From Arthrobacter sp. CAN_C5 (lineage in GTDB: Bacteria > Actinomycetota > Actinomycetes > Actinomycetales > Micrococcaceae): 64,000 bases of DNA. Positions 40,473 through 59,860 of the stretch are shown piece after piece (the stretch's first letter is position 1; the number at the start of each line of letters is the position of its first letter). Made by a program: the position numbers and the translations under genes. Under the pieces are notes generated by a model. The model was given only the letters and a program-made list of their open reading frames with translations, searched no databases and had not been told where the DNA came from. The stretch lies in NCBI RefSeq assembly GCF_017875735.1, contig NZ_JAGGMZ010000001.1, positions 2,976,001 to 3,040,000 on the forward strand. Direction: 5' to 3'.

Positions 40473-40963
40473 TAGTTGGTCCCATTCAACAGTGGATATT
40501 CGTGGTGTTCACGGTTCAGGTTCTCCAGGGCCCTCCGTAGCGCGGTACTGGAGGTGTGGACGGTGTACGGAAAGTAGACGACCGAGACGTTCCGCACAGC
40601 GAACTCCTGTTCGAGCCGCCGAGCCCGCTCGGTTCCCCGCCAGTCGTCGCCCTTGAAGAAGATGTTGAACCTCAGCTGATCCCAGACGGCCATCTTGTCC
40701 GGTACGGTTTCGGCGCAGACCCGGTCGACCAGGCCAATGTTCTCGACAATCTCCATCCGCTCGGCCAAGGGGATCACAGGCCGGCGTCCCTTCGTGACCT
40801 CAAGGATGTCGTCGGAGACCACCCCCGCGATGAGGAAGTCACAGCGGGATTTCGCCTGCCGCAGGATGTTCAGGTGTCCCACATGAAACAGGTCGAAGGC
40901 TCCCGCCGCGTACCCGATGCGGATACCCTGCACCTGCTCGTTGCCTGTTGAGTCGTAGGTCAT
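40472..40963 (-). CDS. Cytidylyltransferase (glycerol-3-phosphate/alcohol-phosphate type)
   Basis: A 163-residue nucleotidyltransferase fold protein. IRIGYAAGAFDLFHVGHLNILRQAK carries the HVGH motif (HxGH), and KGDDWRGTERARRLE plus TVHTSSTALRRAL (the STxxR-type end motif) match TagD/GCT-type enzymes that make CDP-glycerol or a similar CDP-alcohol. I start it at 40963, where ATGA overlaps the sugar transferase stop and AGGAG is 8 bp upstream; the open frame extends further but without family sequence. It is a plausible source of donor for the CDP-alcohol transferase two genes downstream, though use by secreted polymer synthases elsewhere is possible. Confidence 0.85.
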   Translation of the reverse strand: MTYDSTGNEQVQGIRIGYAAGAFDLFHVGHLNILRQAKSRCDFLIAGVVSDDILEVTKGRRPVIPLAERMEIVENIGLVDRVCAETVPDKMAVWDQLRFNIFFKGDDWRGTERARRLEQEFAVRNVSVVYFPYTVHTSSTALRRALENLNREHHEYPLLNGTN

Positions 40964-42459
40964 CAGTACGCTCCTGTCGGTTTGACCAGTACTTTGAAGG
41001 TTCGCCACATGATCATCAGATCCCCGGTGACCGACCAGTTCTCGACGTAGTACAGGTCGAGGCGAACACTCTCGTCCCAGCCCAGATCCGACCGGCCGCT
41101 GATCTGCCAGAGACCTGTGAGACCTGGCTTGATGAACAACCGGCGGTGGGTATGTCCTGCATAACCAGAAACCTCGCTGGGAAGCGGCGGCCGGGGCCCG
41201 ACCAGCGCCATGTCACCGCGGAGGACGTTGAGGAGCTGCGGGAGTTCGTCAATGGAGTACTTGCGGATCCACCGGCCCACCCGGGTGACCCGGGGATCGT
41301 CACGCATCTTGAAGAGGACCCCGTTGCCCTCGTCGCATGCCTTGAGACCGGACAGGTCCGCCTCCGCGGTCGTGACCATCGACCTGAACTTGTACATCGG
41401 GAACTCGGCGGATCCCCGGCCAACACGGTGCTGCTTGAAAATCACCGGGCCCTTAGTGTCGCGCCTGATCAGCAGCGCCACGATGGCGAAGACGGGGGCC
41501 AATGCGATCAGGGCTGTAAGGGACACGACCACGTCCATCAACCGCTTCACGACGTGGCGTCCCCCAGCGAACTGTGGCATTTCGACGTGCATCAGGGGCA
41601 GGCCCTCAACCGGACGCATCTGGATCCGGGGGCCGGCAACATTGGTGAGCGTTGACGCCAGCACCAGTTCGGTTGCCGTGCGTTCCAGCCGCCAACCGAG
41701 TTCACGGATGTATTTGCTTCCCTTGTGGAGGTGGCCAGCGACGATCACTGCATCGGCCCCGGTGTCGGCGACCGACTTTTCCACCCTGCTCAGCCCGTAG
41801 ACCACCGGGATCTGCCGCTCGCCTGCCTGAATGACCTGCGACCGGTCCTTGCCTTCCAGGACGGTCCCGACGACGTCATACACCGCCCCGGTCTTCTTCG
41901 CCAGCTGGCCGACCACGTACTGGACGTCGTCGTGCCGTCCCACCACGATGACCTTGGACAGGAACAGTCCGAACTCCCGCTGGCGCATGAGCCAGTTCCG
42001 CCAGATCCACCGGCTCCCCAGCAGCCCGACCAGGCCAGCGGGGAGGGTGATAATCAGGAAGTTGCGGAAGTCGTGGGCACCAAACAGGACCACTGCGACT
42101 GCCATCCAGCTGAAAGTGGCGGCGCTCGCCTGAACGATCCGCTTGTATTCGGAGACACCCACACCGATCAGCCGCGGGTCACGGGTCCTGAACGTTGACA
42201 GCATGGCCAGCCACCCCCCGCAGACTGCAACGGCGAACGTCACTGTTTCGGTGGTGGCCGCACCGCTGACCATGCTGTTCAGGATCCAGTCTGTGCTGAT
42301 GATCACTGCCGTGAGGATGATCAGGGTGTCGGTGACCCGCAGGGACATCTGGTAGCGCTGACGCCAGGGAACTCCCGACACGGCTGCTGCGCGGACTCTG
42401 GGACGCCGCGTGAGCGCGGGGAACGGGAATCTTAGGGTCTGTTCCTGAGTCTGATACAT
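40963..42459 (-). CDS. Polyprenyl-phosphate sugar-1-phosphate transferase (priming enzyme)
   Basis: A 498-residue initiating transferase. Four or five hydrophobic helices in the first 160 residues, a Rossmann-like CoA-binding-type middle (VIVVGRHDDVQYVVGQL), and a C-terminal bacterial sugar transferase domain: KRLMDVVVSLTALIALAPVFAIVALLI, VIFKQHRVGRG, YKFRSM, and KYSIDELPQLLNVLRGDMALVGPRP with the conserved Asp-Glu. It transfers a sugar phosphate from a UDP-sugar to undecaprenyl phosphate at the cytoplasmic face, starting the repeat unit. It is the first gene of the eight-gene leftward operon. The ATG at 42459 is preferred; an open frame extends to 42576 into the RNA-like element at 42513-42572. 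Confidence 0.9.
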   Translation of the reverse strand: MYQTQEQTLRFPFPALTRRPRVRAAAVSGVPWRQRYQMSLRVTDTLIILTAVIISTDWILNSMVSGAATTETVTFAVAVCGGWLAMLSTFRTRDPRLIGVGVSEYKRIVQASAATFSWMAVAVVLFGAHDFRNFLIITLPAGLVGLLGSRWIWRNWLMRQREFGLFLSKVIVVGRHDDVQYVVGQLAKKTGAVYDVVGTVLEGKDRSQVIQAGERQIPVVYGLSRVEKSVADTGADAVIVAGHLHKGSKYIRELGWRLERTATELVLASTLTNVAGPRIQMRPVEGLPLMHVEMPQFAGGRHVVKRLMDVVVSLTALIALAPVFAIVALLIRRDTKGPVIFKQHRVGRGSAEFPMYKFRSMVTTAEADLSGLKACDEGNGVLFKMRDDPRVTRVGRWIRKYSIDELPQLLNVLRGDMALVGPRPPLPSEVSGYAGHTHRRLFIKPGLTGLWQISGRSDLGWDESVRLDLYYVENWSVTGDLMIMWRTFKVLVKPTGAY

Positions 42460-42512
42460 GTCACACAGCTGTCCGGCGGCCTGCGCTGAAACGCCGGCCG
42501 TCTTTCGTGAAA

Positions 42513-42572
42513 GGAGCCGACGACGGCTGGGGACGAGCCTTGGTCTCGGAAGGCTCCGACGTCGCCGGCTCC
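42513..42572 (-). ncRNA. Folded leader element E1 (YYGAGACY-loop motif) upstream of priming transferase
   Basis: On the minus strand a 13-bp outer stem (positions 42513-42525 with 42560-42572) is complete with one G-U pair. Inside is a hairpin GAGCCTT-CCGAGACC-AAGGCTC and a 3' junction strand GTCCCCAGC. The element starts about 54 bp upstream of the sugar transferase ATG, so it would be in that mRNA leader, followed by only TTT. Similar folds are at 48645-48717 and 54085-54141. It could be a regulatory leader or a terminator-like attenuator; no known Rfam family was recognised. Confidence 0.6.
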
Positions 42573-42770
42573 GCATGAGGAGGACGCATACCGAGGTGCT
42601 GGACAGGTACCATCCGGCATGCTCCCCGCTGCGTCCAGGACGGAATGACGTGGCCTAGCCCGGCCACTGTTCCGCCAGCTGGTAGTAGGTGGAAACGCGT
42701 AACTCCAGAAAACCGGCGGATTGCGCCGCAGGTTGAGTTGTTCAACATATCGAGACCCGCTTCATAAATG

Positions 42771-42798
42771 CCCAAGTACTGCAATTCCCAAGTACTGC
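42771..42798. promoter_or_regulatory. Direct repeat CCCAAGTACTGC, possible regulator site
   Basis: Two identical copies of CCCAAGTACTGC (42771-42782 and 42787-42798), separated by AATT, 16 bp apart. The 13-mer ATTCCCAAGTACT at the second copy is also present, inverted, at 48535-48547 upstream of the next LAL operon, and AAGTACTG recurs at 53940-53947. That makes it a candidate binding site; the protein is unknown. Confidence 0.45.
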
Positions 42799-42836
42799 CT
42801 TCGGGGGCAAGCCTATGAATCCGCCCGGAACCGGAC

Positions 42837-42879
42837 ACGAGTGGTAGCTACCTGACTTCCGGCAGGTAGCACTACTCGT
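42837..42879. promoter_or_regulatory. Long imperfect palindrome containing GTAG/CTAC half-sites
   Basis: Left arm ACGAGTGGTAGCTACCTG (42837-42854) and right arm CAGGTAGCACTACTCGT (42863-42879) pair over 17 positions with one bulge and one mismatch, with an 8-bp spacer. It holds GTAGCTAC and GTAGCACTAC, related to GTAGTGGCTAC (48807-48817) and GTAGCGACTAC (53981-53992). It lies 380-420 bp upstream of the priming transferase start, downstream of LAL1. Confidence 0.5.
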
Positions 42880-43007
42880 GCTGGCACCCCCGCCGCGGGT
42901 AGTACTCGCTGGATGACCGCCGGCTACGCGCGAGTCCCGCGGCGGTCCGGGTGCGGGCAATGGACCCGAGGCTGTCGGTACCTGGTCCGCTGGCCGCCTT
43001 GGGCTCG

Positions 43008-43044
43008 CGGACACGCAGGACCCGAGCCGGACGCGCAGGATCCG
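43008..43044. repeat. Direct repeat CGGACxCGCAGGAyCCG
   Basis: CGGACACGCAGGACCCG at 43008-43024 is followed by CGGACGCGCAGGATCCG at 43028-43044, with two differences and a 20-bp offset. It sits 30-70 bp beyond the stop of LAL1 within an otherwise gene-free 617-bp region. Function unknown. Confidence 0.6.
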
Positions 43045-43076
43045 CTGGCGGTCTGGCGGGTGCTACCTAAGTCAAT

Positions 43077-45767
43077 TTAGGACGGGTTGAGATCCTGCAG
43101 GTCCTCGCGGCGGCTGATGCCGAGCTTCGCGAAAATCCGGTACAGGTGCCCTTCCACGGTGCGTACCGACACTCCGTGCTGTTCGGCAATGTCGCGGTTG
43201 GAGTGGCCGCGGGAAGCAAGGGTGACGATATCCTGTTCCCGTTGGGTCAGCTTGGTGGCTGACTGGGCCTCCGAGAATTGGTGCCCGTGCAGTCCCTCCA
43301 GCTTGTCCACCACAGCGTTCAGTGTGGGTTGCAATGCACGGGAGCGCTGGGTCTGGCCCTGCGCGGACAATAGGTTGATGGCCGTACCCAGGCATTCGGC
43401 GGCAATCAGGAAGTAGTCGGCGTCCCGGGCTTGCTGGGCGGCAACTTCCAGCGCAGTGGGGTCCTTGGCCAGCATCCCGGCGGCCATCGCGTTGACCATC
43501 GCTCCATCGGCCCCCTCGAAGGTGGCGGTGATTCGCTGCAGGGCGGTGAGCGAGGCGGAGTCGCCCAGGCGGACCGCCAGTTCGAATGCTGACGCGGCGA
43601 GGGTTGCCATGCCAGTGGACTCGGCGTCCTCGGCGATCCGTCGGAGTTCTGTGATCGCCGCCGAGGCGCCCACCAGGTGCGCGTTCGCTCCCACGGCGTG
43701 AATTTTTCCCTGCAGCCGGGCCTGAAGCGACCCATAGGCGGGAAGGGCTGCGAACTCGTTCGAGTAGCGCTGGGCGCCCGCTGTGTCCCCCGCCATGGCG
43801 CAGGCGTAGGCCGCCATCCCGGTGGACATGGTCAGCAGTTGGGCGATGTCTGATTCACGGAATCCTTCGACAGCAAGCATCAGGCGTTTCCGTGCGGTCC
43901 GCATCCGACCCTGACGCAGCGCAATGATGCCTTCGAAGTACTCAAGAATTCCGCCGAAGTACACCATTCCGCCGTCGGCGGCCTGCGAGTACGCGGCCAG
44001 GAGCGAGCCGATCGCCTTCCACTGCCCGCCGCGGATCAGTGACATCCCGTGCCGGGTGATTACGAACTCCTGATGGCGCAGGAAGCGGTGCCCGCTCGCC
44101 GCGATGATCTCGAGCGCCTCGGTGGTGGCGGCTGCACCTGCCAGCGGCCGGCCCGTCGACCCGAGTGCCTCACCGAGCAGGGCCAGGGCAGCCAGACGGG
44201 TTTCCTCGGTGCCCTCTGGGTTGTCTCTGATGGCGACCAGATGGGTTTCCGACTCGAGGTAATGCCCCTCCAGGTTGAGCACGAAACAGGACAGGATCTG
44301 GCTCCCCATCCGGGAGAGCCTGATGGAGCGGCTGGACGATCCGTTCCGTTGCTGTTCGATGCGGTCCACCGTCTGCTCCCAACGGTGGACGTCCTCCCGA
44401 ATCTCCTGGGAATTCCCTCCTCCCCTCATTCGCAGGTCGATCGACAGGAGGGTAGCCTCCTTGGCGATCCGCAGGCTCCCGCAGTTGATGAGGGCCTCGT
44501 CAACCAGTTCGCGTGCGTAGGCGAAGTCGCCGCGCGTCATCCGCGCGTGCGCAATTTCCACCAGGGCACGCGACTTCAACTCGGGTGCCTGGACCACCCG
44601 CGCCGCACGGAGCGCGAAGGTGGGGTCGTAGAGCCGGTTTGCCACGATTGCGGCCTTCAGCAATGTGGCGTCGTCAAGCACGGCCCCGCAGTCGAGTCCC
44701 CAGGACACCCAGCGGAGGAACCCTTCGATCGAATCGGCCTGGTCCTCGATCAGTTTGAGGAGACGCCGGCGGATGGCATTGCTCCGACCAATCGGCACCT
44801 GCGCACGGATAGCCTCCCCGTACAGCGGGTGGGCGAGCGCCACCCGCGGGTCGGGGCCGGGGGTAAGGGAGAGGAGCTGGTCATCGACCAGGGTATCGAC
44901 GGCGAGGGGGTCGCAGGTTTCGCGAAGGACGCTCAGTGCTACTGGCTCGGCGAGCGCGACGGTCTCCAGCACCTCGAGCTCTGCCGTCGAGCGGCCCCGG
45001 AGCTGTCCCTGGATCAGGTCCGTGAGCCGCAGGTCGATCCCGGGCCGTTCACCGGAAAGGCACCATACTCCGTTCCGCTGCACCAGGTACTTGGACCGCG
45101 CATCGGGGTGGAGCAGGGCCAGGAGAAACATCGGGTTGCCTTCGGAGGCCTTGCTGAGGACGGCGCTCACGCTGGAGAGGATCTCATCGCCCAGCTCCCT
45201 GACACATAGTTCGTGGATCTGCTGCCGGTTCAGCGGATTGAGATCGTACCGGTACAGCATACCGTCGTGGGACAGCGCCAGGAACTCCGAGGGTGGGCCG
45301 GGGTTGGGCCGGGCGAGCACCAAGGCCCGGGCGCGTCGGGTGGCGATGAGCTGTGCGAGGAGGACACTGGTGCTGTCGTCGAGGTCGTGGGCGTCGTCCA
45401 CGATAAACAGGGGAACCGTGCCGCCTGTGCCCTGTTGCCCCAGGTGCCGGGTCAAAGCGCGGTAGATGGCGATGGGCGATCCGGCGTCGGCCACCGACAG
45501 TTCTCTCAGATAGGGAGCGAGCGCGCCGAACGGCACCTTTTTCAGCGAAGGCTGGGCACCGATATGCACCACCGTGACGTCCCCGCCCAGTCCATCGGCA
45601 ACCGTCCGGGCCAGCGCAGTCTTACCCAGCCCGGGATCACCCACCACGATGGCGCCGAACAGGTGGGGCTCCGACAGTTTCGACAGGATGTCCCTGACCA
45701 GGAGCTGCCTGCCGACCAAATTGGTGGAGGGCGGAGTAACGCCAACCACGGGTTCAGGACTATTCAA
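43077..45767 (-). CDS. LuxR-family LAL regulator 1 (ATP-binding)
   Basis: An 896-residue LAL protein: an N-terminal AAA-type ATPase module with Walker A GDPGLGKTALARTV (about residues 42-55) and Walker B LFIVDDAHDLDD (about 120), a long alpha-helical TPR-like middle, and a C-terminal LuxR HTH, LTQREQDIVTLASRGHSNRDIAEQHG then TVEGHLYRIFAKLGIS. Such proteins use nucleotide and small-ligand or protein sensing to control transcription (MalT-like). The TTG at 45767 overlaps the LAL2 stop by 8 bp, so LAL2 and LAL1 form one operon. No ligand can be predicted. Confidence 0.87.
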   Translation of the reverse strand: MNSPEPVVGVTPPSTNLVGRQLLVRDILSKLSEPHLFGAIVVGDPGLGKTALARTVADGLGGDVTVVHIGAQPSLKKVPFGALAPYLRELSVADAGSPIAIYRALTRHLGQQGTGGTVPLFIVDDAHDLDDSTSVLLAQLIATRRARALVLARPNPGPPSEFLALSHDGMLYRYDLNPLNRQQIHELCVRELGDEILSSVSAVLSKASEGNPMFLLALLHPDARSKYLVQRNGVWCLSGERPGIDLRLTDLIQGQLRGRSTAELEVLETVALAEPVALSVLRETCDPLAVDTLVDDQLLSLTPGPDPRVALAHPLYGEAIRAQVPIGRSNAIRRRLLKLIEDQADSIEGFLRWVSWGLDCGAVLDDATLLKAAIVANRLYDPTFALRAARVVQAPELKSRALVEIAHARMTRGDFAYARELVDEALINCGSLRIAKEATLLSIDLRMRGGGNSQEIREDVHRWEQTVDRIEQQRNGSSSRSIRLSRMGSQILSCFVLNLEGHYLESETHLVAIRDNPEGTEETRLAALALLGEALGSTGRPLAGAAATTEALEIIAASGHRFLRHQEFVITRHGMSLIRGGQWKAIGSLLAAYSQAADGGMVYFGGILEYFEGIIALRQGRMRTARKRLMLAVEGFRESDIAQLLTMSTGMAAYACAMAGDTAGAQRYSNEFAALPAYGSLQARLQGKIHAVGANAHLVGASAAITELRRIAEDAESTGMATLAASAFELAVRLGDSASLTALQRITATFEGADGAMVNAMAAGMLAKDPTALEVAAQQARDADYFLIAAECLGTAINLLSAQGQTQRSRALQPTLNAVVDKLEGLHGHQFSEAQSATKLTQREQDIVTLASRGHSNRDIAEQHGVSVRTVEGHLYRIFAKLGISRREDLQDLNPS

Positions 45768-48411
45768 GGATCATCTTCAGTTGGCTACGGTTGGAGACCC
45801 CCAACTTCGCATACACCTGATACATATGCCCTTCGACCGTCCTGATGGACAGCGTCAGCATTGCCGCGATATCGCGGTTGCTTGATCCTTCGGCAACCAG
45901 CCGGGCGATGCTCCGTTCACGTTCGGAGAGCTTGTCCAGGACGCGCTGGCGCAACTCCCCGCCACCGCGCCCCACCGTGCGCAGGATGCCGCTTGCCGCC
46001 ATGGCGGCCCGCTTCTCCCCCTCACCGGGGCTGTCGGCCGACATCCGCTGCACCAGGTTGGCTGCGTCCGCGGCCAACCGCTGATTACCGACGTCGGCCG
46101 CCAGCTTCGCAGCCTTGAGGATCTGGGCGGTGTCGCCGGAGGCCACTCCCTTGCCGTACAGGGCACAGATTTCGGCGAACACTCCCTGGCCATCCATGCC
46201 GCTTGTCGCAAGCCGCTCCCCGACGTCGGTCATCCCCAGTTGCACCGCCTGGCAGAGGAAGAACAGTTCGTGTCCGAAGTTGCCTGCCGCCCGGTCCTCG
46301 TCGGCCAGCTGGAGCATCTCCCCGGCGGCCTGCAGGCGGTCCCGCGTCGCAGTCGAAGCCAGGACGGAGAAGTATCTGGTGGCCCGCGCGGTATGCCAGT
46401 CGAACCGCCGGGCGGCCAGGTCCACCTTCCCAAGGTGGGACATCGACAGCTGGGCATCACCGATGAGGGTGTACGCATAGGCAGTGGCCGCTTCGGCCAG
46501 GCTGAGGAACTCCTGCCGATCGCGGATCCGCAGTTGGCTCAGTGCGGGGAGCAGTTTGGTCAGAGCCTCGGTCCCACGCCCGGCGTAGGCATACAGGCAG
46601 CCCTCCGCCAACTCGAGCGAGGTCCCATCGAAGATTCCCGCGAGAGATCCCTCCTGATGGTCGCTGATCATCGCCAGACACCGCTCCCACTGACCAGAAA
46701 TCAGCATGACTGAGAACAGCCGCACCTGGGCTGACTCGGCGAGCAGGGGGTCCTCGGTGGAGTCCGCCAATCGGGATACCACCAACCGGCTGAGTTGCAC
46801 CGCGTCGTCCTGACGTCCCGTCATGCTGAGGGCTTCGGCCAGCCAGCCGCACAGCTGGTGCCGGACGGTCGGATCCATTGAGTCGCCCTGTCTCAGGAGG
46901 TCATCGATGGGCTCGATCATGGCTGCGTACCGCCCGTTGTGGGCGCTGAGCTCCGCGTCGAGCAAGTCCGTCTCAGCGAGCAGGCCTGCAAGACCCTCAA
47001 GGCCTGACTGTCCTTCCCGGATCAGTCGTTCGCGGATCTTCGCCAGAAGGACATCCGCCTCGGCGAACCTCACCTGGTCCCGGCTGAGCAACCTGCACCT
47101 GAGCACCTGCATGGACACCCACTCGTGGAGGTTCGGGTCCTGGGGCTCCGAGGAGATGAACGCGTCCAGAATCTGCAGGGCCCGCATGGTATCGCCCTGG
47201 ATTCCATAGGCCCGCGCTTTTTCGGTGACTTCCCTAGCACCCACTTTCTCTGGCGGAACCGCGCCAAGGAACCGGAGTGCACCCTCCGTGTCGAAGTAGC
47301 GGTTCGCAAGCTGGGCCGCCTCGATCGCCAGGACAGGGTCAATCTCCAGTGAACTGTCCAGGCACCAGGCCGCATAGTTCATCCGGCTCAGTGCAGGCAT
47401 GGGGAGTTTGAGGGAGGCGGCAGCCAACTGCTGGACAAGCTCCCTGCTCCGGCCAACGGGTACCTGGCGTCGAATTACCTCGCCGATCAGGCCGGTGACG
47501 ACCCGGACCATGGGTTGCTGCGTCAGCTCGATCTCGAAGATCCCGGTTTCCATCAGCGCGTCCACTTCGTCCCCGCCGGCGAAATCGGAGAGCAGCTCCA
47601 GTGGCATCGCCCCGACGATGGAGACGATCTCGGCGGTTCGTCGCTGGTCGGGAGACAGCCGGGCCAGACGGGTGGAGATCCGCTCAGTGATGATGCGGCC
47701 GGGATCGGGTGACCTCCGTGGACCCGCCACCCAGATTCCGTCCTGGGTAGTGATGTACCCGGACTCCACCTGTTCCCTGCCGATGGCTTGCAGAAACAGC
47801 GGGTTACCCCCGCTGGCGTGCCAGGTGTCGAGCACGACAGACCGGGAGACTGGCCCTCCAAGGCCGAGGGTCAGCAGCTCCGCTGTGTCGGCCAGCGATA
47901 GGGGCTCGATATCCACCCGGCGGATGAGCTCATCTTTCCAGAGGTCGCTGAACTCGTCGGGAGCTGCGTGGAGGGTCTGGCACACGAGCAGCACTTTCAC
48001 AGCCCCGCTCTTCACCAGGTGGGCAATCGCCGTCGCCGAGGCACTGTCCAGATCCTCGATGTTGTCCACAAGGATGAGGGTCCGTTTGCCGCCTGACCGC
48101 CCAGCGAAGAGCTCCTGGAGGCTCCGCAGCAGGATGAGCGGATTGTCGACTGCCGCATCATCAAGGTCGCTCAGCACGAAGTTCAGTGCGCCGTAAGGCA
48201 TGTCTGCGGTGAGTGCGCTCCCCCTGATGTAGAGAAGATCAAAGTTGGCCTCGACGTCGCGGGAGACCCGTTGCGCCAGCACGGTCTTGCCGATGCCTGC
48301 CTGGCCGGTAAGAACGGCGCCCTGGCAGTCTTGAGGGACCACGGCATCCCGCAGAACTGATAACTCACTGTCCCGGCCAACAAGTGGCCAGGCTCCTTGT
48401 ACACCAAACAT
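45760..48411 (-). CDS. LuxR-family LAL regulator 2 (ATP-binding)
   Basis: An 883-residue LAL protein. Walker A GQAGIGKTVLAQRV (about residues 37-50), Walker B LILVDNIEDLD (about 116), a long helical repeat region and the LuxR HTH LSERERSIARLVAEGSSNRDIAAMLT with TVEGHMYQVYAKLGVS. It is the first gene of the LAL2-LAL1 pair. The 455-bp region upstream (48412-48866) contains the folded element E2, an AAGTACT motif and GTAG/CTAC sites, so its promoter is probably complex. Its target is not known; the adjacent polymer operon is the obvious candidate. Confidence 0.87.
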   Translation of the reverse strand: MFGVQGAWPLVGRDSELSVLRDAVVPQDCQGAVLTGQAGIGKTVLAQRVSRDVEANFDLLYIRGSALTADMPYGALNFVLSDLDDAAVDNPLILLRSLQELFAGRSGGKRTLILVDNIEDLDSASATAIAHLVKSGAVKVLLVCQTLHAAPDEFSDLWKDELIRRVDIEPLSLADTAELLTLGLGGPVSRSVVLDTWHASGGNPLFLQAIGREQVESGYITTQDGIWVAGPRRSPDPGRIITERISTRLARLSPDQRRTAEIVSIVGAMPLELLSDFAGGDEVDALMETGIFEIELTQQPMVRVVTGLIGEVIRRQVPVGRSRELVQQLAAASLKLPMPALSRMNYAAWCLDSSLEIDPVLAIEAAQLANRYFDTEGALRFLGAVPPEKVGAREVTEKARAYGIQGDTMRALQILDAFISSEPQDPNLHEWVSMQVLRCRLLSRDQVRFAEADVLLAKIRERLIREGQSGLEGLAGLLAETDLLDAELSAHNGRYAAMIEPIDDLLRQGDSMDPTVRHQLCGWLAEALSMTGRQDDAVQLSRLVVSRLADSTEDPLLAESAQVRLFSVMLISGQWERCLAMISDHQEGSLAGIFDGTSLELAEGCLYAYAGRGTEALTKLLPALSQLRIRDRQEFLSLAEAATAYAYTLIGDAQLSMSHLGKVDLAARRFDWHTARATRYFSVLASTATRDRLQAAGEMLQLADEDRAAGNFGHELFFLCQAVQLGMTDVGERLATSGMDGQGVFAEICALYGKGVASGDTAQILKAAKLAADVGNQRLAADAANLVQRMSADSPGEGEKRAAMAASGILRTVGRGGGELRQRVLDKLSERERSIARLVAEGSSNRDIAAMLTLSIRTVEGHMYQVYAKLGVSNRSQLKMILE

Positions 48412-48534
48412 AGCGCCCCACTACATGGTGCAGGTCGGCACGGCGAGTCGTCCCAGCCCGACAGATTCAAGGAAGGAGGAAACGGTCCCCGTTCCAGCTT
48501 TGACGAAAGTTGCAGAGTCCGCCTCAGCTTCTCA

Positions 48535-48547
48535 AGTACTTGGGAAT
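48535..48547. promoter_or_regulatory. AGTACTTGGGAAT motif shared with the priming-transferase leader
   Basis: AGTACTTGGGAAT is the exact reverse complement of 42784-42796. It lies about 124 bp upstream of LAL2. A 13-bp match in two promoter regions 5.7 kb apart is unlikely by chance at this GC content, so this is a candidate regulator site. Confidence 0.45.
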
Positions 48548-48644
48548 AACCATACGCTGGATTGAGGATTAAGGCACGCGAAGTGGCCAAAAAATGTGAG
48601 CGGTCTCACGGGACCCTGGCCTCGGCATCGAGTGAGGGTACTAC

Positions 48645-48717
48645 CCATGGTAGGGCCGACGGCGGGCTGGGGATCAGCCCGGTCTCAGAAGGCTGGCCGC
48701 CGCCGGCCCGACCATGG
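48645..48717 (-). ncRNA. Folded leader element E2 (YYGAGACY-loop motif) upstream of LAL2
   Basis: An outer stem of 13 bp with one G-U pair (48653-48665 with 48697-48709) extends past one mismatch by CCATGGT/ACCATGG to 48645 and 48717. The inner minus-strand hairpin is AGCC-TTCTGAGACC-GGGCT, followed by GATCCCCAGC, matching E1 in layout. It lies between the LAL3 stop and the LAL2 start, about 235 bp upstream of the latter. There is no U tract, so simple intrinsic termination is less likely here. Confidence 0.58.
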
Positions 48718-48806
48718 GTTCCGCCGGTGAGGGCGGAAAGGGTCTCCCTGGGCACATGGCCCGGGTGACACAGTCAGACTACGGTCCACATACCTTCCCC
48801 ACACGC

Positions 48807-48817
48807 GTAGTGGCTAC
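48807..48817. promoter_or_regulatory. GTAG-TGG-CTAC palindrome
   Basis: GTAGTGGCTAC followed by TCG lies in the gene-free region between LAL3 and LAL2. The same half-site pair occurs at 42844-42875 and 53981-53992. Other GTAC/CTAC-type matches (GGTACTACCC around 48637, CGGCTACTTC around 48833) cluster nearby. Confidence 0.4.
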
Positions 48818-48866
48818 TCGTCTTCGTGCCAGCGGCTACTTCACTCAGCGCCCGGTCTACGCGGCT

Positions 48867-51572
48867 CTAAGGCTCGTGGGAGCCTTCCTCCAACAGCCCG
48901 ATGACCAGATCATCCCGGCCCCCGATGCCGAGTTTGAGGTAGATCCGGTAGAGGTGTCCCTCAACTGTCCGGCGGGAAACGGTGAAATAGGTGGCTATTT
49001 CCTGGGAGGACGCACCCCTCACCGCAAGCCTGGCAATCTCCTGTTCCCTACGGGTCAAGGCCACCCGGGTCAGGGCTTGATCGGTGACGGCACGGGTCCG
49101 GACCCTTCCAAGCATGGGAATCAAGCCACGCAGCTGCTGTCGGACCATACGCTGCACCCTTTCCTCCCCCCTCCGTCCGTACTCTGAGGCGCCACGCGCC
49201 AGGCACTCGGCCGCCAGGAGATGCCGGCCGGCACTGAGTGCCTGTGCCCCGGACGCCACAAGCTGGGCCGGGTCTGACGAAGCTGCAGCGAGTGCGATGA
49301 TGCGGATGGTGTCAGAGTCGGTGGCACCCAGTTCGTTGGCCAACTCCTCAAGGCGCCCGGCACTAACCGGACGCTGCAGGAGGAAAAGCAGTTCGAGGAT
49401 CTCGGCCTCCGCGTTGACCAGTCCCCGTGACTTTGCCTCGGCGGCTCCTGCCTCGATCGCCGCCACCTCCTGGTTCGTCACCGCCAACCACGACTTGGCG
49501 GCGGAAATGTACCCGTCCGCCACCAAACGCTGCGGCAGGAACCCCCGGTACGGGAGCACCCTGTAGTCCTGGAGGTACCCCAGGGCACGCTCATTGTCCC
49601 CCACCAATCGGCTGGCAAAGGCGGCGGTTCCCAGGGCCAGGGGGAGGAGCATCTCGGGGTCGTGGCGTCGGAGTTCCTCGATTCCGGCGGCCAGCAAGTC
49701 ACAGCTAGCATCGATGCGCCCGCATCTGAAGTCCAGCACGCCCTGCAACGTCATCAGGTTGCCGCCGAAGTGTTGCAGTGCTGGCGGCGCTGACTGGTCA
49801 AACGATTCGCGCAGGAGTGCGAATCCTGCCTCGTCCATGGTCAGCACCAGCAGCGCCCCATGGCGGGTAATCGCGGTGCGGTAGTGCCGGGCAAGGTCCC
49901 CGTTCTCCCCCGTGGTCGCAACCGCTGCAAGGGTCAGATCCTTTGCCTCAGCGGTCTTTCCCGTCGCACCCAGGGCTTCTCCCAGCAACATTCGCGAGAG
50001 CAGGCCAACGGTGGATGAGGGCACCGTGCCACCGACGATGCCGCGCAGGCCCCGGATCGCGGTGCTGTAGTCACCGGCCAGGCAGTGCGAAACGTGCCTC
50101 AGGATCGCCGCGCCACACTCGACCTGGTCCCTCTTTGCTGGGTCGTCCTGCCGGTTCTGGGCGGCGTTCAACCGCTGGCCCACCACCGCCCAGCGGTCAG
50201 CGATACCGAGGAGGTCCTCAGCACTGCCCCCTCGCTGCAGGGTGATCTGGGCCTCGGTGACGGCGGCCTCCGCCAGGATCCCCGGATCTGCCGCCTCTTC
50301 GATGAGTCCGCGAATCTCGGCGGCGGCCGCTTCGGTGTCGGCCAGGTACAGGAAACTTCGTGCCGATTCCACCCTGGTAGCCGTGGCGAACTCGGGCGTG
50401 GTGACTGCTGCCGAGAATCGTTGCGCCTGGCGGGGCGCGAACCCGTTGTTGGCCTGTTGGGCGGCTGCCAATAACTCCTGATCCGGAATTCCATCGCCGA
50501 GATCCATTGCCCAGCCCACACTGGTGCTGGCTCCCGCGGCTGCCAGTACCTCGCGTCCATGCTGGGATGCTCGCAGGGTTCTGAGGATCTCGACCCGCCG
50601 ACCGGGAGGAAGGAGGTGTCGAATCACTTCCCCATACACCCGCGGTTCGACCGTGACACGGCTCCTGCGGCTGCCGGGCCGTCCCGAATAGGCCAGGAGA
50701 TTCACCGCGAGCCCCTGTTCCATGGCGGTGGGGTCCAGCAGATGCCGTGCGGCGGTGGTGGGAATACCTCCCAGCATTGCAACCATTTCGATGGCTCCGC
50801 GAGTAGCAGGTGTGCAGCCGAGGAGAAGCGCCTTGACCCGCTCCACCAGTTCGTCTCCGGCGGATTTCGGGGTTGAAACCAACAGCCACACCCCGTTGCG
50901 CTCAACGAGTGCCCTGGTGGAGCGCAAGTGGGAGATCAGCGCCCTGATGATAGCGGGATTCCCCTGGGACCAATCGGTGAGGAATGAAGTTGCGTTGGAA
51001 CTGACAATCCCGCCCAGATCCCGCTGGGAGAGCACTGCCACCTGTTCCCGGCCCAACGCCGAAAGTTCACACCGCATGAGCAGGCCGTCCCGGCAGAGTG
51101 AGTAAAGTTCCTCTGGCACATTCCCCAGTGACCGGGTGAGCACCAGGAGGCGAATTTCCCGGGCCAACGCGAGCTGGCCGAGGAGGTGGCTGCTCTCCTG
51201 ATCCAGGTGGTGGGCGCTGTGGACGGTCACCAGCACCGGCAGTCCGGCTTCAGAAGAAACGGAGTTCAGGGCTGCCCTGATCAGCCGCAGTACTGCCAGC
51301 CGGGACTCGAGATCGCCGGGAGCTGAATCGAGCAGTAGAGGCGCCAGCGCCCCATAGGGTACGCGACTCAGCGAGGAATCCGCGTGGATGGCCAGCGGCA
51401 CTACCGTGCCTTCCAGCCTCATCAGGACCTGTGACGCCACCGCCGACTTGCCGATGCCGGCGGGGCCACACACCCAGGCTCCGCTCATGAGCGGGTCCAG
51501 AATGCTGGCTGAGACCTGGTCTATGTCGGCGGACCGCCCGATCAGTCCGCCAGCCCCGAGCTGGGCGTTCAC
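48867..51572 (-). CDS. LuxR-family LAL regulator 3 (degenerate Walker B)
   Basis: A 901-residue LAL protein with Walker A GPAGIGKSAVASQV (about residues 39-52). At the Walker B position the sequence is VLVTVHSAHHLDQESS; the usual acidic pair is replaced by His-Ser, so ATP hydrolysis may be impaired. A helical repeat region follows, and the HTH LTRREQEIARLAVRGASSQEIATYFTVS with TVEGHLYRIYLKLGIG ends it. GTG at 51572 overlaps the LAL4 stop (GTGA), so LAL4 and LAL3 form one operon. It may sense nucleotide without hydrolysing it. Confidence 0.86.
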   Translation of the reverse strand: MNAQLGAGGLIGRSADIDQVSASILDPLMSGAWVCGPAGIGKSAVASQVLMRLEGTVVPLAIHADSSLSRVPYGALAPLLLDSAPGDLESRLAVLRLIRAALNSVSSEAGLPVLVTVHSAHHLDQESSHLLGQLALAREIRLLVLTRSLGNVPEELYSLCRDGLLMRCELSALGREQVAVLSQRDLGGIVSSNATSFLTDWSQGNPAIIRALISHLRSTRALVERNGVWLLVSTPKSAGDELVERVKALLLGCTPATRGAIEMVAMLGGIPTTAARHLLDPTAMEQGLAVNLLAYSGRPGSRRSRVTVEPRVYGEVIRHLLPPGRRVEILRTLRASQHGREVLAAAGASTSVGWAMDLGDGIPDQELLAAAQQANNGFAPRQAQRFSAAVTTPEFATATRVESARSFLYLADTEAAAAEIRGLIEEAADPGILAEAAVTEAQITLQRGGSAEDLLGIADRWAVVGQRLNAAQNRQDDPAKRDQVECGAAILRHVSHCLAGDYSTAIRGLRGIVGGTVPSSTVGLLSRMLLGEALGATGKTAEAKDLTLAAVATTGENGDLARHYRTAITRHGALLVLTMDEAGFALLRESFDQSAPPALQHFGGNLMTLQGVLDFRCGRIDASCDLLAAGIEELRRHDPEMLLPLALGTAAFASRLVGDNERALGYLQDYRVLPYRGFLPQRLVADGYISAAKSWLAVTNQEVAAIEAGAAEAKSRGLVNAEAEILELLFLLQRPVSAGRLEELANELGATDSDTIRIIALAAASSDPAQLVASGAQALSAGRHLLAAECLARGASEYGRRGEERVQRMVRQQLRGLIPMLGRVRTRAVTDQALTRVALTRREQEIARLAVRGASSQEIATYFTVSRRTVEGHLYRIYLKLGIGGRDDLVIGLLEEGSHEP

Positions 51573-53905
51573 CGTCTGAACGCGGTGCTGAGATTCACCT
51601 TCGCCAGGAGCTCAGCCCTGGTCCGGACGTGAAGTTTCGTGTACACGCGGTGCAGGTGTCCTTCGACGGTACGGACACTGACATCCATGGCTAGTGCCAG
51701 GTCCCGGTTGGTCTTGCCGTCAACCACTGCGGTGACCACTTCGACCTCGCGCCGGGTCAGGGAAGCAAGCTGTCGCCGTGCTCCGAGCGCGGTGCCGGAC
51801 ACACCGACGACGCCGCGAACGCGGTCCGCGACGTAGGCAATGGTCGCGCGCTCGCCGGATTGGGCGGCGAGCTGCACCGCCGACGCGGCCGCGTCACGGG
51901 CAAAAGACTGGTCGCCGAGGTGCTGCGCCAGTTCCATTGCCTGCAACACCAGCTCTGCGTCCTCCGCATCGACGCCCTTGGCATAGAGCTGGCTCAGGGC
52001 AGCGAACCGTCCCTGGCAGGTTGCGCTGAGTTTGAGGATTGGCTGGGCAACCCCGGTGTCTCCCTGCCGCATCGCGCCGCACAGGGTCATCAACTCCCAG
52101 GAACTATTGCCCAGCGCCGCGTCCTCCCTGCTGAGCTCACGCAATTCGAAAGCTGACCGGTCAGCCGATGCCGTGCCCGCCAGGGCCAACGCCGCGAAGT
52201 GCTTGGTCAGGCGTCGCACCGTCCAGGATGCCGTCCGGGACGGGATACTGGCGATCGCGAGGTAGTCAGCCGCCTGCGCCGGATTATCCGGAGCGCTGAC
52301 AAAGGCCAGCGCCGCGGCGGCGAGGGGCGCCGCACCCGCGGGGTCGTGCACCTGAAGTTGTCGCAGTGCCGGGTGGAGTAACGGCTCCGCCTCGGCGGGT
52401 CGTCCGGCCGCCGCGTAGATCAGTCCTTCGGCAAGCTCCTCATAGGTTCCAGTGCCGGGGCCCAGGCTCAGCAGGTGGTACGCCGACACCTCCAGCAGAC
52501 CTGTCAGGTTGCCCGACACTGCCTCGAGGGTAGCAAGCGTCATGGCGATCCGGGACGGCAGCGGCGGTTGGCCGGCAATGTCGGAGTGCAGCGCAACGGC
52601 AGCTTCCTTCGCATCATCCACCCGGCCGGTGAACGCGAGCGCCTCGCACAGCCACGCGGCAGCCAGACGACGGTGGTCAGGCTCGAGCGCACCGGGAATA
52701 AACTCTGAAGACTTCAGCTCGGTCACTACATCCCGAAAATGGCCCTTGGCTGCGGCCTGGCGTGCACGCTCGAGGATTCTCGCTGCCTGCTGCTTTCGGG
52801 GTTCGCCGACCGGTCGACTCAGCGGGCCGGATGCGGACCTGCTGGCTGCCAGGTGGGGACTGAAGCCATCGACCGGGTTCGTCAGACCGAGCACCGCGTC
52901 GCTGAGGAGCGGGGTCGCCACGGAGACGGTGGCCCACCGGTCGCTGGCAATGGAGAGCATTCCCTGCTCCTGGAGATCATCCAGATCTCCCAGGGCGTCG
53001 CCTGGGACGGCGGCGAGTGGTGTCGTCCCAGCGGCGGCGAGGGCGCCCAGCAGCCGGCGCTGGGCGGGTTGAAGCATGACAATCCGGTCGGCGATCAGGG
53101 CGGTGGTGGCTTCGCTGGGCCGCACCTTGTCCGCGGTCAGAACCCAGACGCCTGCACCGCAGCTGAGCGCACCAGCAGCGACATAGTCGCGCACCAGTGC
53201 GCCGAGAAGCCTGGGATTTCCGCCGCTGTGGGTGTGCAGAGCGAGCGACGAGGCCCGGGACGCACCGGCACCGAGGGTCGCCGCAAGGTACGCAGCGACC
53301 TCCTGCTGGGACAGGGGCGCCAGGTCCATCCGCACCAGGGTGCCCTTCAGGGACAACGTCTGGAAGTAAACGGGGGCGTCCGCGAGATCGCTGCAGGCAG
53401 CGACCAGCCGGATGGTCCCGGCCTGCACCATCTGGCCCAGCACCGTTGTCGACGCCTCGTCCAGATAGTGGGCGTCGTCGACCACAACGATCACGGGTAG
53501 GCCCAGCGCCTTGCCTTTGAGCACGCGTGTGAGGGCGCTGATCACCCGGACCGGATGGCTGAGGACGTGCTCTCCCGTGTCCGCCAGCAGGACCCGAAGG
53601 GCACCGTAGGGTTCCCGCACGTTACGACCAGAGCCCCGAAGGTGGATCAGGCAGGCGGTGGCCCGAAGGTGGTCCACCATCGACCGCAGGAGTGCTGTCT
53701 TGCCGCTTCCTGATTCGCCGGTCAGCAGGACCGATGAGGGGGCAGACCCCTCCAGCAGCAGATCATTGAGAGTTTGGGGAAGGTACGCGCGGGCGCCCCT
53801 CGGGGGCGTCGTCGCACTGCTGGCCCCCGTCCGTGGCTCGGGAGACGCCTGACGCCACTCAATCGGGGCAGGCGGGTGGGCATGCGTACTGATGTTGAAA
53901 CTCAT
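51569..53905 (-). CDS. LuxR-family LAL regulator 4 (shorter)
   Basis: A 778-residue LAL protein, the shortest of the four because of a reduced helical middle. Walker A GESGSGKTALLRSM (about residues 62-75), Walker B VIVVVDDAHYLDEAS (about 145), and LuxR HTH LTRREVEVVTAVVDGKTNRDLALAMDVS with TVEGHLHRVYTKLHVR. It is the first gene of the LAL4-LAL3 pair. AAGG lies near the ATG at 53905. Upstream are a GTAGCGACTAC site and the folded element E3. Confidence 0.86.
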   Translation of the reverse strand: MSFNISTHAHPPAPIEWRQASPEPRTGASSATTPPRGARAYLPQTLNDLLLEGSAPSSVLLTGESGSGKTALLRSMVDHLRATACLIHLRGSGRNVREPYGALRVLLADTGEHVLSHPVRVISALTRVLKGKALGLPVIVVVDDAHYLDEASTTVLGQMVQAGTIRLVAACSDLADAPVYFQTLSLKGTLVRMDLAPLSQQEVAAYLAATLGAGASRASSLALHTHSGGNPRLLGALVRDYVAAGALSCGAGVWVLTADKVRPSEATTALIADRIVMLQPAQRRLLGALAAAGTTPLAAVPGDALGDLDDLQEQGMLSIASDRWATVSVATPLLSDAVLGLTNPVDGFSPHLAASRSASGPLSRPVGEPRKQQAARILERARQAAAKGHFRDVVTELKSSEFIPGALEPDHRRLAAAWLCEALAFTGRVDDAKEAAVALHSDIAGQPPLPSRIAMTLATLEAVSGNLTGLLEVSAYHLLSLGPGTGTYEELAEGLIYAAAGRPAEAEPLLHPALRQLQVHDPAGAAPLAAAALAFVSAPDNPAQAADYLAIASIPSRTASWTVRRLTKHFAALALAGTASADRSAFELRELSREDAALGNSSWELMTLCGAMRQGDTGVAQPILKLSATCQGRFAALSQLYAKGVDAEDAELVLQAMELAQHLGDQSFARDAAASAVQLAAQSGERATIAYVADRVRGVVGVSGTALGARRQLASLTRREVEVVTAVVDGKTNRDLALAMDVSVRTVEGHLHRVYTKLHVRTRAELLAKVNLSTAFRR

Positions 53906-54219
53906 TGAGAGACCTTTTCTTCGCGTTCCCAGCGTTGTGAAGTACTGATCACGGTAGAACTCCCGCCCGGCACCCGCATGAGTAGCGACTACCCGAATTT
54001 TTCGCTCGCACTACGCATCGGCTACTTGGATCCGTAGGGCCGGGGTACTCGGCAGTCTTCGTTTCGAGGATGAGCATCAAAAAAGGGACCGACGTTGGGA
54101 TGGGGGTGGCCCAGTCTCAGAGGCCGCCCAACGTCGGCCCCCGCATTTGGGGCCGCAATGGCTCAGCGGTCTGGATCATTTCACCATGTCACCACTGATC
54201 GTGAATCTAATTTTATCCG
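53906..54219. promoter_or_regulatory. LAL4 promoter region (314 bp, no gene)
   Basis: This region between pth and LAL4 contains AAGTACTGA at 53940-53948, GAGTAGCGACTACC (GTAG-CGA-CTAC at 53981-53992), CGGCTACTTGGATCCGTAG (about 54019-54037) and the folded element E3. No ORF was supported. It is the clearest of the three leader regions that share the motif set. Confidence 0.6.
54085..54141 (-). ncRNA. Folded element E3 (YYGAGACY-loop motif) with T6 tail
   Basis: A 15-bp stem with one G-U pair on the minus strand (54085-54099 with 54127-54141), inner hairpin GGCCT-CTGAGACT-GGGCC, and ACCCCCAT on the 3' side. The minus strand then runs into TTTTTT (54084-54079), as in an intrinsic terminator. 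It lies 79 bp beyond the pth stop and 180 bp upstream of LAL4, so it could end the pth transcript, be an attenuator for LAL4, or both. Confidence 0.6.
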
Positions 54220-54807
54220 TTATTTCCCTGCCGAGTGGTATTTCTGCTGAGCGCTGACAAGCCCCTCGGTAATAAGCGATTCCACGGCATCAGCCGCGTC
54301 CTCGAGGAGGAAGCCCAGCTCCTTCTTTTCGACCGTTCCGAAGTCACGGAGCACATGATCGGCTGCATCCTGCCGCCCCGGGGGGCGGCCCACCCCGACC
54401 CTGATCCTTAGGTAGTCCTTGGTACCGAGAACCTTGGAGATGTCCCGCAAACCGTTGTGTCCGCCCTCACCGCCGCCAGCCTTCAGCTTGACCGTGTTGA
54501 AGTCGATGTCGATCTCGTCGTGCACGGCAATGACCCGTTCAGCGGGTATGTCGTAGAAACGGCAGAGGGCTCCGACCGGGCCTCCGGAGAGATTCATGTA
54601 GGTCAACGGCTTGGCGAGGATCAGCTTCGGTCCGCCGATGCCCAGACGGCCTTCGAGGACAGCCGCGTGCGCCTTGTGGCTTTTGAATTTCCCGCCGAGC
54701 CGTTCGCCCAGCGTGTCAAGAACCATCTGACCCACATTGTGTCTGTTGCGGCTGTAGTCGGGCCCTGGGTTCCCGAGCCCGACTACCAGCCACGTGTCAT
54801 TCGCCAC
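54220..54807 (-). CDS. pth: Peptidyl-tRNA hydrolase
   Basis: A 195-residue Pth, which frees tRNA from drop-off peptidyl-tRNA. VGLGNPGPDYSRNRHNVGQMV carries the catalytic His and Asn, LTYMNLSGG and HDEIDIDFNTVKLKAGGGEGGHNGLRDI complete the active site, and RIRVGVGRPPG is family-typical. It is cotranscribed with rplY (20-bp gap). It is followed on the leftward side by element E3. Confidence 0.95.
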   Translation of the reverse strand: MANDTWLVVGLGNPGPDYSRNRHNVGQMVLDTLGERLGGKFKSHKAHAAVLEGRLGIGGPKLILAKPLTYMNLSGGPVGALCRFYDIPAERVIAVHDEIDIDFNTVKLKAGGGEGGHNGLRDISKVLGTKDYLRIRVGVGRPPGRQDAADHVLRDFGTVEKKELGFLLEDAADAVESLITEGLVSAQQKYHSAGK

Positions 54808-59788: not shown

Positions 59789-59860
59789 TTCCGCCCATAG
59801 GATTCGAACCTATACTCCACAGCTCCAAAGGCTGGGGTGCTGCCATTACACCAGGGCGGA
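59789..59860 (-). tRNA. tRNA-Gln (UUG anticodon)
   Basis: The minus strand folds as a complete cloverleaf: acceptor TCCGCCC (5') with GGGCGGA (3') and discriminator A, D-arm with GTAATGGCAGC, anticodon loop CTTTGGA giving anticodon TTG (reads CAA), and T-arm GGTTCGAATCC. CCA is not encoded. It lies between glmU and the ABC-F gene. Confidence 0.95.

Follow-up and report, generated by a model that had tools for sequence, protein, structure and literature searches.

Leader-peptide control of the replication gene of IncI-type plasmids (RepY/RepZ) relies on a leader open reading frame (ORF) that overlaps the main ORF and is translationally coupled to it, and on a stable hairpin whose loop can pair with start-site sequence. 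The leaders of Bacillus eps operons carry another RNA element, EAR, which acts as a processive antiterminator. Intrinsic terminators and attenuators combine a GC-rich stem with a T-rich tail. ANTAR targets are described as two hairpins whose hexaloops have A as the first and G as the fourth base; the second hairpin is terminator-like, and the small RNA EutX/Rli55 takes part in this dual-hexaloop antitermination (PMC8934654). Here, we analyzed a window of 64,000 nucleotides (nt) from Arthrobacter sp. CAN_C5 (assembly GCF_017875735.1, contig NZ_JAGGMZ010000001.1, positions 2,976,001–3,040,000; all coordinates below are those of the window, 1–64,000). It contains three minus-strand hairpins, E1, E2, and E3, among genes for a priming glycosylphosphotransferase of exopolysaccharide synthesis (hereafter the transferase) and for LAL regulators, which combine an ATPase with a LuxR-type helix-turn-helix domain (Table 1). 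The three hairpins are members of one structured-RNA family of the Arthrobacter group.

Judged by analogy, the element would work most like the leader-ORF control of plasmid replication genes. It differs from RepY/RepZ in that the gene concerned is a chromosomal exopolysaccharide gene of actinobacteria and no plasmid is involved, and in that the partner of its loop would be the start of the leader ORF, not that of the main ORF. With EAR it shares the position in the leader of exopolysaccharide operons; however, it is a single hairpin, and Rfam searches at E-values up to 1 on 19 element loci (10 + 9) gave no match. A partner of the LoaP/RfaH type was rejected, since the genome encodes a single NusG-domain (PF02357) protein. 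Like ANTAR targets, the element is preceded at some genes by another hairpin, so that two follow each other with the second being terminator-like, and two copies precede ANTAR genes. The first hairpin is, however, not a general part (mean z −1.0 over 96 leaders, 46% below −1) and its loop varies, and ANTAR genes are not general neighbours. An ANTAR target was rejected because the element has a CUGAGACC-like loop of about 8 nt, in which the A and G of the hexaloop rule are missing from positions 1 and 4. The GC-rich stem and T-rich tail resemble those of intrinsic terminators, in contrast to the conserved loop and bulge, the weak tail of most copies, the leader position and the ORF running through the stem.

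Read directly from the minus strand, E1, E2, and E3 each form an outer stem of 13–15 bp, an inner hairpin and a 3′ bulge carrying CCCCA. The inner loops are CCGAGACC, CUGAGACC, and CUGAGACU, respectively, and each outer stem contains one G-U pair. A preliminary description of this DNA had proposed such a common fold with conserved loop and CCCCA, and direct reading, pattern search and covariance models bore it out, as did folding of E1 and E3. In minus-strand folding, the shared fold was the energy minimum for E1 (z −2.94) and E3 (z −4.54). The minimum for E2 (z −6.34), which has an additional outer stem (ACCCATGGT / ACCATGGGT), kept the outer stem and departed from the shared fold in its inner part, so the placement of E2 in the family rests on alignment. 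The plus strand gave weaker values (E1 −2.69, E2 −5.06, E3 −2.10). The earlier statement that the outer stems differ in sequence but stay paired held for the pairing, and only partly for the sequence, as the segment GCCGRCG / CGYCGGY is conserved in sequence as well. Among 30 aligned copies, loop and bulge positions were among the invariant columns and the stems drifted.

The pattern TCYGAGACYN{7,9}CCCCAKCC occurred three times in the 3.86 Mb genome, at E1, E2, and E3, and its reversed control not at all. A covariance model (R1) built from 12 sequences, E1 included, recovered E1, E2, and E3 with E-values of 5.8 × 10−18, 8.5 × 10−7, and 8.5 × 10−6, the next best match having 0.73. The core pattern was present in 40 of 196 genomes, all of the same family, and in none of 78 sampled from other families of the order; its reversed control was found in 4 of the 196. 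A second model (R2), built from 34 sequences and used in wide searches with stricter filters at which weak matches are lost, matched 228 of 395 family (Micrococcaceae-type) genomes in 19 of 32 genera, with up to seven copies per genome (E up to 0.01). In samples of the order and the phylum, it matched 13 of 248 genomes, 12 of these in the family, and 2 of 396, both in the family. The lone match outside the family (E 1.2 × 10−4, genome G192) overlaps a gene on the opposite strand and is probably a chance match. The preliminary description had named a lack of homologues beyond the window as one outcome that would speak against an RNA element; the search of actinobacterial genomes yielded many matches, nearly all in one family.

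Its further statement, that no matching Rfam family was known, also stood: with Rfam 15 (4227 models) at gathering score, only a tRNA was matched in the whole window. The element is a structured RNA lacking an Rfam match that occurs in more than half of the genomes sampled from this major soil family. Literature searches on Arthrobacter structured RNA, small RNA, leader peptides and Micrococcaceae RNA motifs returned nothing on the element among the records listed. Of the named stretches carrying it, 21 of 23 belong to Arthrobacter, Tersicoccus, Specibacter or an uncultured Micrococcaceae bacterium. The element is also in two records whose titles, Sporosarcina beigongshangi and Acidobacteria metagenome-assembled genome (loci L087 and L091), are probably wrong. 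Searching plasmids with E1 gave two records, searching them with the copy of locus L137 gave none, and E1 found none in phages. The 11-kb plasmid pRK01 of Arthrobacter alpinus (L171, NZ_CP013201.1) carries LAL-like pieces and the hairpin, with transferase-like sequence downstream. A mobile element or one resembling repetitive extragenic palindromes was rejected, since copies are few per genome and have the same neighbours in related genomes.

All 240 stem cells pair in the E1-type set of 12 sequences, where 5 of 20 pairs change on both sides. In two larger alignments, which were fitted to the model and are biased towards it, pairing was 97.7% with 11 pairs changed on both sides in 73 cells (mixed set of 34 sequences, 29 distinct) and 97.8% with 19 of 20 pairs changed on both sides in 225 cells (80 sequences, 77 distinct). 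The latter set came from 71 sources with matches kept at E up to 10−6, so that weak copies stand outside the pair counts. None of 500 shuffles of the set of 80 scored as high, and slid structures reached at most 6 pairs and 23 cells. Thus, by our own pair counts, used instead of R-scape, the stems covary as had been anticipated, and the element combines compensatory changes above the controls with homologues elsewhere, as a conserved structured RNA does. Among the 77 distinct relatives, cells of the G-U type outnumber those of the A-C type by 133 to 20, which fixes the minus strand as the RNA strand, in agreement with the earlier claim.

A 20-bp box of the form AGTAG-N3-CTACTCGTGYGC (about AGTAG-N3-CTACTCGTGYG) typically lies 17 bp before a −10 sequence (e.g., TAGGCT or TAGCTT). 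It was found on the same strand within 330 nt upstream of 50 of 87 E1/E2-type hits versus none of the 14 hits with the exact E3 core. The box is directional: over 101 hits, duplicates included, 50 had it upstream and 3 downstream on the same strand, and 5 had it upstream and none downstream on the opposite strand. After removal of near-identical upstream regions, 94 leaders remained, of which 16 matched a regular expression modelled on words seen earlier in the same leaders (0.48 expected). A box matrix scored in 52 of the 94 versus 58 of 2000 random pieces, a result that is partly circular because 17 of the sites found had been used to build the matrix. The strict box pattern occurs twice in the genome, both times at this locus, as often as its reversed control. 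It is present in 134 of 390 family genomes, the reversed control being at least as common in many of them, and, by hand count and with lineages that are not independent, in 117 of 246 genomes of element-bearing genera versus 17 of 144 others. Standard promoter scans of the E1, E2, and E3 regions returned no sigma-70 site, and a literature search with the box word gave nothing related among the matches listed. The GTAG-N3-CTAC symmetry recalls LuxR-type sites. By this analogy, the box probably answers to the LuxR-type LAL regulators and is a candidate site for LAL proteins. E1 and E2 thus appear to be leader elements transcribed from a dedicated, putative promoter box. The preliminary description had placed all three copies in leaders; this stands for E1 and E2, which lie behind a box, but E3 need not belong to the LAL1 leader, since a box intervenes between E3 and LAL1. 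From its sequence context, E3 may not be a LAL leader at all but a separate short RNA that carries the same loop.

In the leader of the transferase, an upstream ORF reads through E1, and its stop codon lies one base before the transferase start (TGA-C-ATG); Pfam and NCBIfam gave no match for its product. The word GGTCTC stands directly before the start of this ORF, and the conserved loop UGAGACC has the matching reverse complement, GGUCUCA. An excess of the reverse complement upstream was an unexpected outcome of counting loop words: for 96 hits, the 300 nt on the upstream side gave 40 for GTCTC and 14 for GAGAC, compared with 20 and 12 on the downstream side. Directly before ATG, GTCTC is found in most transferase leaders. 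When all 5-mers before ATG were ranked in 27 such leaders, with no word chosen in advance, GGTCT and GTCTC reached 18 each and words not overlapping GGTCTC at most 3. Altogether, GTCTC-ATG is present in 40 of 49 transferase leaders versus 5 of 94 other copies.

The ORFs themselves show the same association with the transferase. Among 17 leaders listed, GTCTC ATG opens an ORF of 54–117 codons in 14; the ORF is longer at loci L162, L163, and L218, running into the transferase frame at L162 and L218, and ends before the hairpin at L200. At L162 and L218, the in-frame ORF would place the hairpin in the N-terminal coding region of the transferase. An ORF ends at the transferase start in 25 of 29 leaders, 18 of them by a 4-base overlap (ATGA, GTGA or TTGA); three of the 25 (L011, L016, and L017) have no upstream start codon in frame, which the larger counts (n = 49) require. 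In these, an ORF runs through the hairpin with a stop overlapping or abutting the transferase start in 41 of 49 leaders versus 4 of 59 other copies whose downstream gene was recognised. If the ORF has to be opened by a GTCTC-N-ATG-type start, it reaches the transferase start in 37 of 49; of the remaining leaders, one is fused with the transferase frame, two end early and nine lack the word. By either count, the leader ORF extends to the start of the gene it would regulate, as in a leader-ORF attenuator. In genome G113 (L028 / L154), two tandem hairpins 117 bp apart lie within a single upstream ORF before the priming transferase. It is extremely unlikely that the hairpin is conserved for the peptide it encodes in the upstream ORF, PSETKAxPQPSSAP. 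Most listed transferase leaders do read the hairpin in one frame, but the paired changes in the stem do not preserve the peptide, the frame used through the hairpin is a different one at L112 and L207, and the E3, LAL and SufS copies mostly lack such an ORF.

On balance, we lean towards reading the transferase leader as a translation-coupled leader switch, which ribosomes translating the upstream ORF would open. With its loop (UGAGACC or CGAGACC), the hairpin would pair with GGUCUC before the start of the upstream ORF and block it. As long as the ORF is not translated, the transferase would stay silent, and transcription may also stop at the terminator-like stem and its T-rich tail; T frequencies at the first two tail positions were 0.48 and 0.58 versus a background of 0.19. 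Once the ORF is translated, ribosomes would pass through the hairpin, melting it, and start again at the transferase, whose start the ORF overlaps. Both the order of these events and their trigger are put forward as a proposal. The calculated duplex of GGUCUCA with the loop CUGAGACC has −10.0 kcal/mol, and that of the E1 loop with its own leader word −12.2 kcal/mol. Going by complementarity and position, pairing of the loop with GGUCUC at the ORF start is likely, and if true would constitute a directly testable leader-ORF control in actinobacteria. We regard the element as a new RNA family with an unusual use of its loop.

Several observations weigh against such a switch. As the loop hardly varies, its pairing with the leader cannot be proved by covariation. 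In hand counts of the base facing loop position 2, leaders with U (37) had A only in 25, G only in 5, a mixture in 4 and C or U in 3, and of the leaders with C (8), 4 had G, which pairs, 3 from one related group had A, which does not, and 1 had both; these counts are suggestive of pairing in two genome groups and contradict it in one. The word-bearing leaders come from at least the genera g1, g20, g25, g26, g29, and g32, and related leaders are not independent. GTCTC-ATG precedes the gene in only 1 of 23 SufS and none of 30 LAL copies, so a function independent of the pairing must exist, and for E2 the stretch from its box to LAL3 lacks GTCTC. Folded in isolation, the E1 leader is predicted to hold GGUCUC in other pairs. 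For alternative pairings at the leader start, a complementary word was present in 40 of 49 without convincing covariation. The CCCCA bulge is left unexplained, and in some leaders the copies of GGTCTC are too many for a single loop acting in cis, suggesting that several partner molecules take part. More than one GGTCTC before the upstream ORF start was seen at L164 and L206 (three each) and at L087 and L168 (two each). For a pairing of an upstream GGCYCC with the 5′ arm, inspection by eye showed mismatches in several lineages.

Since the hairpin is used elsewhere without the ORF, a second partner of the loop and the CCCCA bulge is probable, which could be a protein, an RNA or a ligand. Loop and bulge might form an aptamer-like pocket for a protein or small molecule that sets termination or antitermination, a reading to which we give little weight. 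The invariance of loop and bulge, the same fold before genes without an upstream ORF and the terminator-like stem would all suit it, and CUGAGA of the hairpin resembles the T-loop word of the thiamine pyrophosphate riboswitch. However, in our judgement the neighbouring genes share no pathway that would name a ligand, and GGTCTC at the ORF starts would have no explanation. The search for a co-distributed RNA-binding protein covered NusG and the scanned neighbours; ANTAR genes follow the element at two of these loci.

The E3-type copies have features of their own. A −10-like TANNNT lies 7–8 nt before the small 5′ hairpin in 11 of 22 (shuffle control: mean 2.0, maximum 7 in 500; shifted positions: 0–4 of 22). 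Their T tail is strong, in contrast to about 3 T in 8 in E1/E2-type copies. With −10 box and tail, E3-type copies look like units of about 85 nt. It is possible, though we consider it unlikely, that E3 and perhaps terminated leaders act in trans as small RNAs, their GAGAC loop pairing with the GGUCUC found where the upstream ORF of the transferase and LAL1 begin. LAL1 indeed lies behind GGTCTC, and for its start, AAAAGGTCTCTCAATG, the calculated duplex with the E3 loop has −8.1 kcal/mol. Furthermore, 9 of 101 hits, some of them weak, are located between two genes that both run opposite to the hit, as a free-standing RNA gene could be. On the other hand, the E3 of the window has no clear −10, only 3 of 30 E3 loci carry GGTCTC before the next gene start, and transferase leaders with GGTCTC occur in genomes in which a single copy was found (e.g., G061), where action in cis must suffice. 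A single base-pairing circuit in which the loops of E2, E3, and E1 compete for GGUCUC at the starts of the transferase upstream ORF and LAL1 is likewise doubtful. If true, transcripts of the regulators would set exopolysaccharide priming via RNA in addition to a LAL-dependent promoter.

We also considered that the hairpins could be ordinary intrinsic terminators of the upstream genes, pth or LAL, which share their loop by accident. E3, with T6 directly after its GC-rich stem, has the tail of such a terminator, and at all 19 first-batch loci the L25 gene and pth precede the E3-type copy. Over the 101 hits, the upstream neighbour is co-directional in 77 and the next gene convergent in 12. Yet the upstream gene is divergent in 9, the stems covary around a conserved loop, the hairpin is crossed by an ORF, and E1/E2-type copies have weak tails and, in more than half of the hits, the directional promoter box before the hairpin. 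We find this explanation improbable overall, and for E1 and E2 it is already disfavoured.

The genes around the element were called with our own gene caller. With duplicates included, the orientations of upstream and downstream neighbour relative to the 101 hits were ++ in 64, +− in 12, −+ in 9, −− in 9 and incomplete in 7. A LAL gene is directly upstream in 41 of 101 rows (hand count; a few rows represent the same place twice). Many copies precede a priming transferase, SufS, Mfd or another LAL gene, and the next gene after most E3-type copies encodes a LAL protein or a cysteine desulfurase of the SufS type (TIGR01979 above cut-off at L135). Genes for SARP-type (BTAD), ANTAR and polysaccharide deacetylase proteins were also found downstream; as the reference set for this survey was itself taken from these neighbours, other classes of gene could be present without showing up. 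The placement before LAL and sugar-transferase genes that had been noted in the window is thus supported among relatives, and it ties the RNA family to large LAL regulators as well as to the step that primes exopolysaccharide synthesis. The features of the window are listed in Table 1.

Table 1. Features of the analyzed window (all on the minus strand; window coordinates).
Feature	Position	Strand	Basis or remark
E1 hairpin	42513..42572	-	sequence, core pattern, R1 (E 5.8 × 10−18), covariation
E1 outer stem	42572-42560 / 42525-42513	-	
E1 loop CCGAGACC	42549-42542	-	
E1 CCCCA-bearing bulge	42534-42526	-	
E2 hairpin, leader of LAL3	48645..48717	-	sequence, core pattern, R1
E2 loop CTGAGACC	48688-48681	-	
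E3 hairpin (T6 tail), located about 80 nt downstream of pth	54085..54141	-	sequence, core pattern, R1
E3 loop CTGAGACT	54120-54113	-	
Putative promoter box of E1 transcript, score 13.5 (weaker than the other two)	42833..42852	-	matrix; -10 TAGGCT 42815-42810
Putative promoter box of E2 transcript, score 23.5	48799..48818	-	matrix; -10 TAGTCT 48781-48776
Putative promoter box of LAL1 transcript, score 22.4, between E3 and LAL1	53974..53993	-	matrix; -10 TACCGT 53956-53951
Upstream ORF, 95 codons, reads through E1	42461..42748	-	sequence
GGTCTC directly before upstream ORF start	42752..42757	-	reverse complement of E1 loop (GGUCUCG / CGAGACC)
GGTCTC just before LAL1 ATG (53905)	53909..53914	-	sequence
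Priming glycosylphosphotransferase (exopolysaccharide synthesis), 498 amino acids, start set at ATG 42459	40963..42459	-	PF02397, E 1.2 × 10−67; TIGR03025 above cut-off
LAL4	43077..45767	-	Pfam
LAL3	45760..48411	-	Pfam
LAL2	48867..51572	-	Pfam
LAL1, ATPase and LuxR-type helix-turn-helix	51569..53905	-	Pfam
pth, peptidyl-tRNA hydrolase, upstream neighbour of E3	54220..54807	-	PF01195
tRNA, sole Rfam match of the window	59789-59860	-	Rfam

A second terminator-like hairpin, GTGAGACCGCTCAC, with a T6 tail lies between E2 and LAL3 (48609–48590, minus strand) and contains TGAGACCG, a word that is also present at the E2 loop. At locus L141 (G410:C12), two tandem, weakly scoring hairpins lie between genes that both run opposite to them, with a full promoter box abutting the first, and are candidate free-standing RNA genes.

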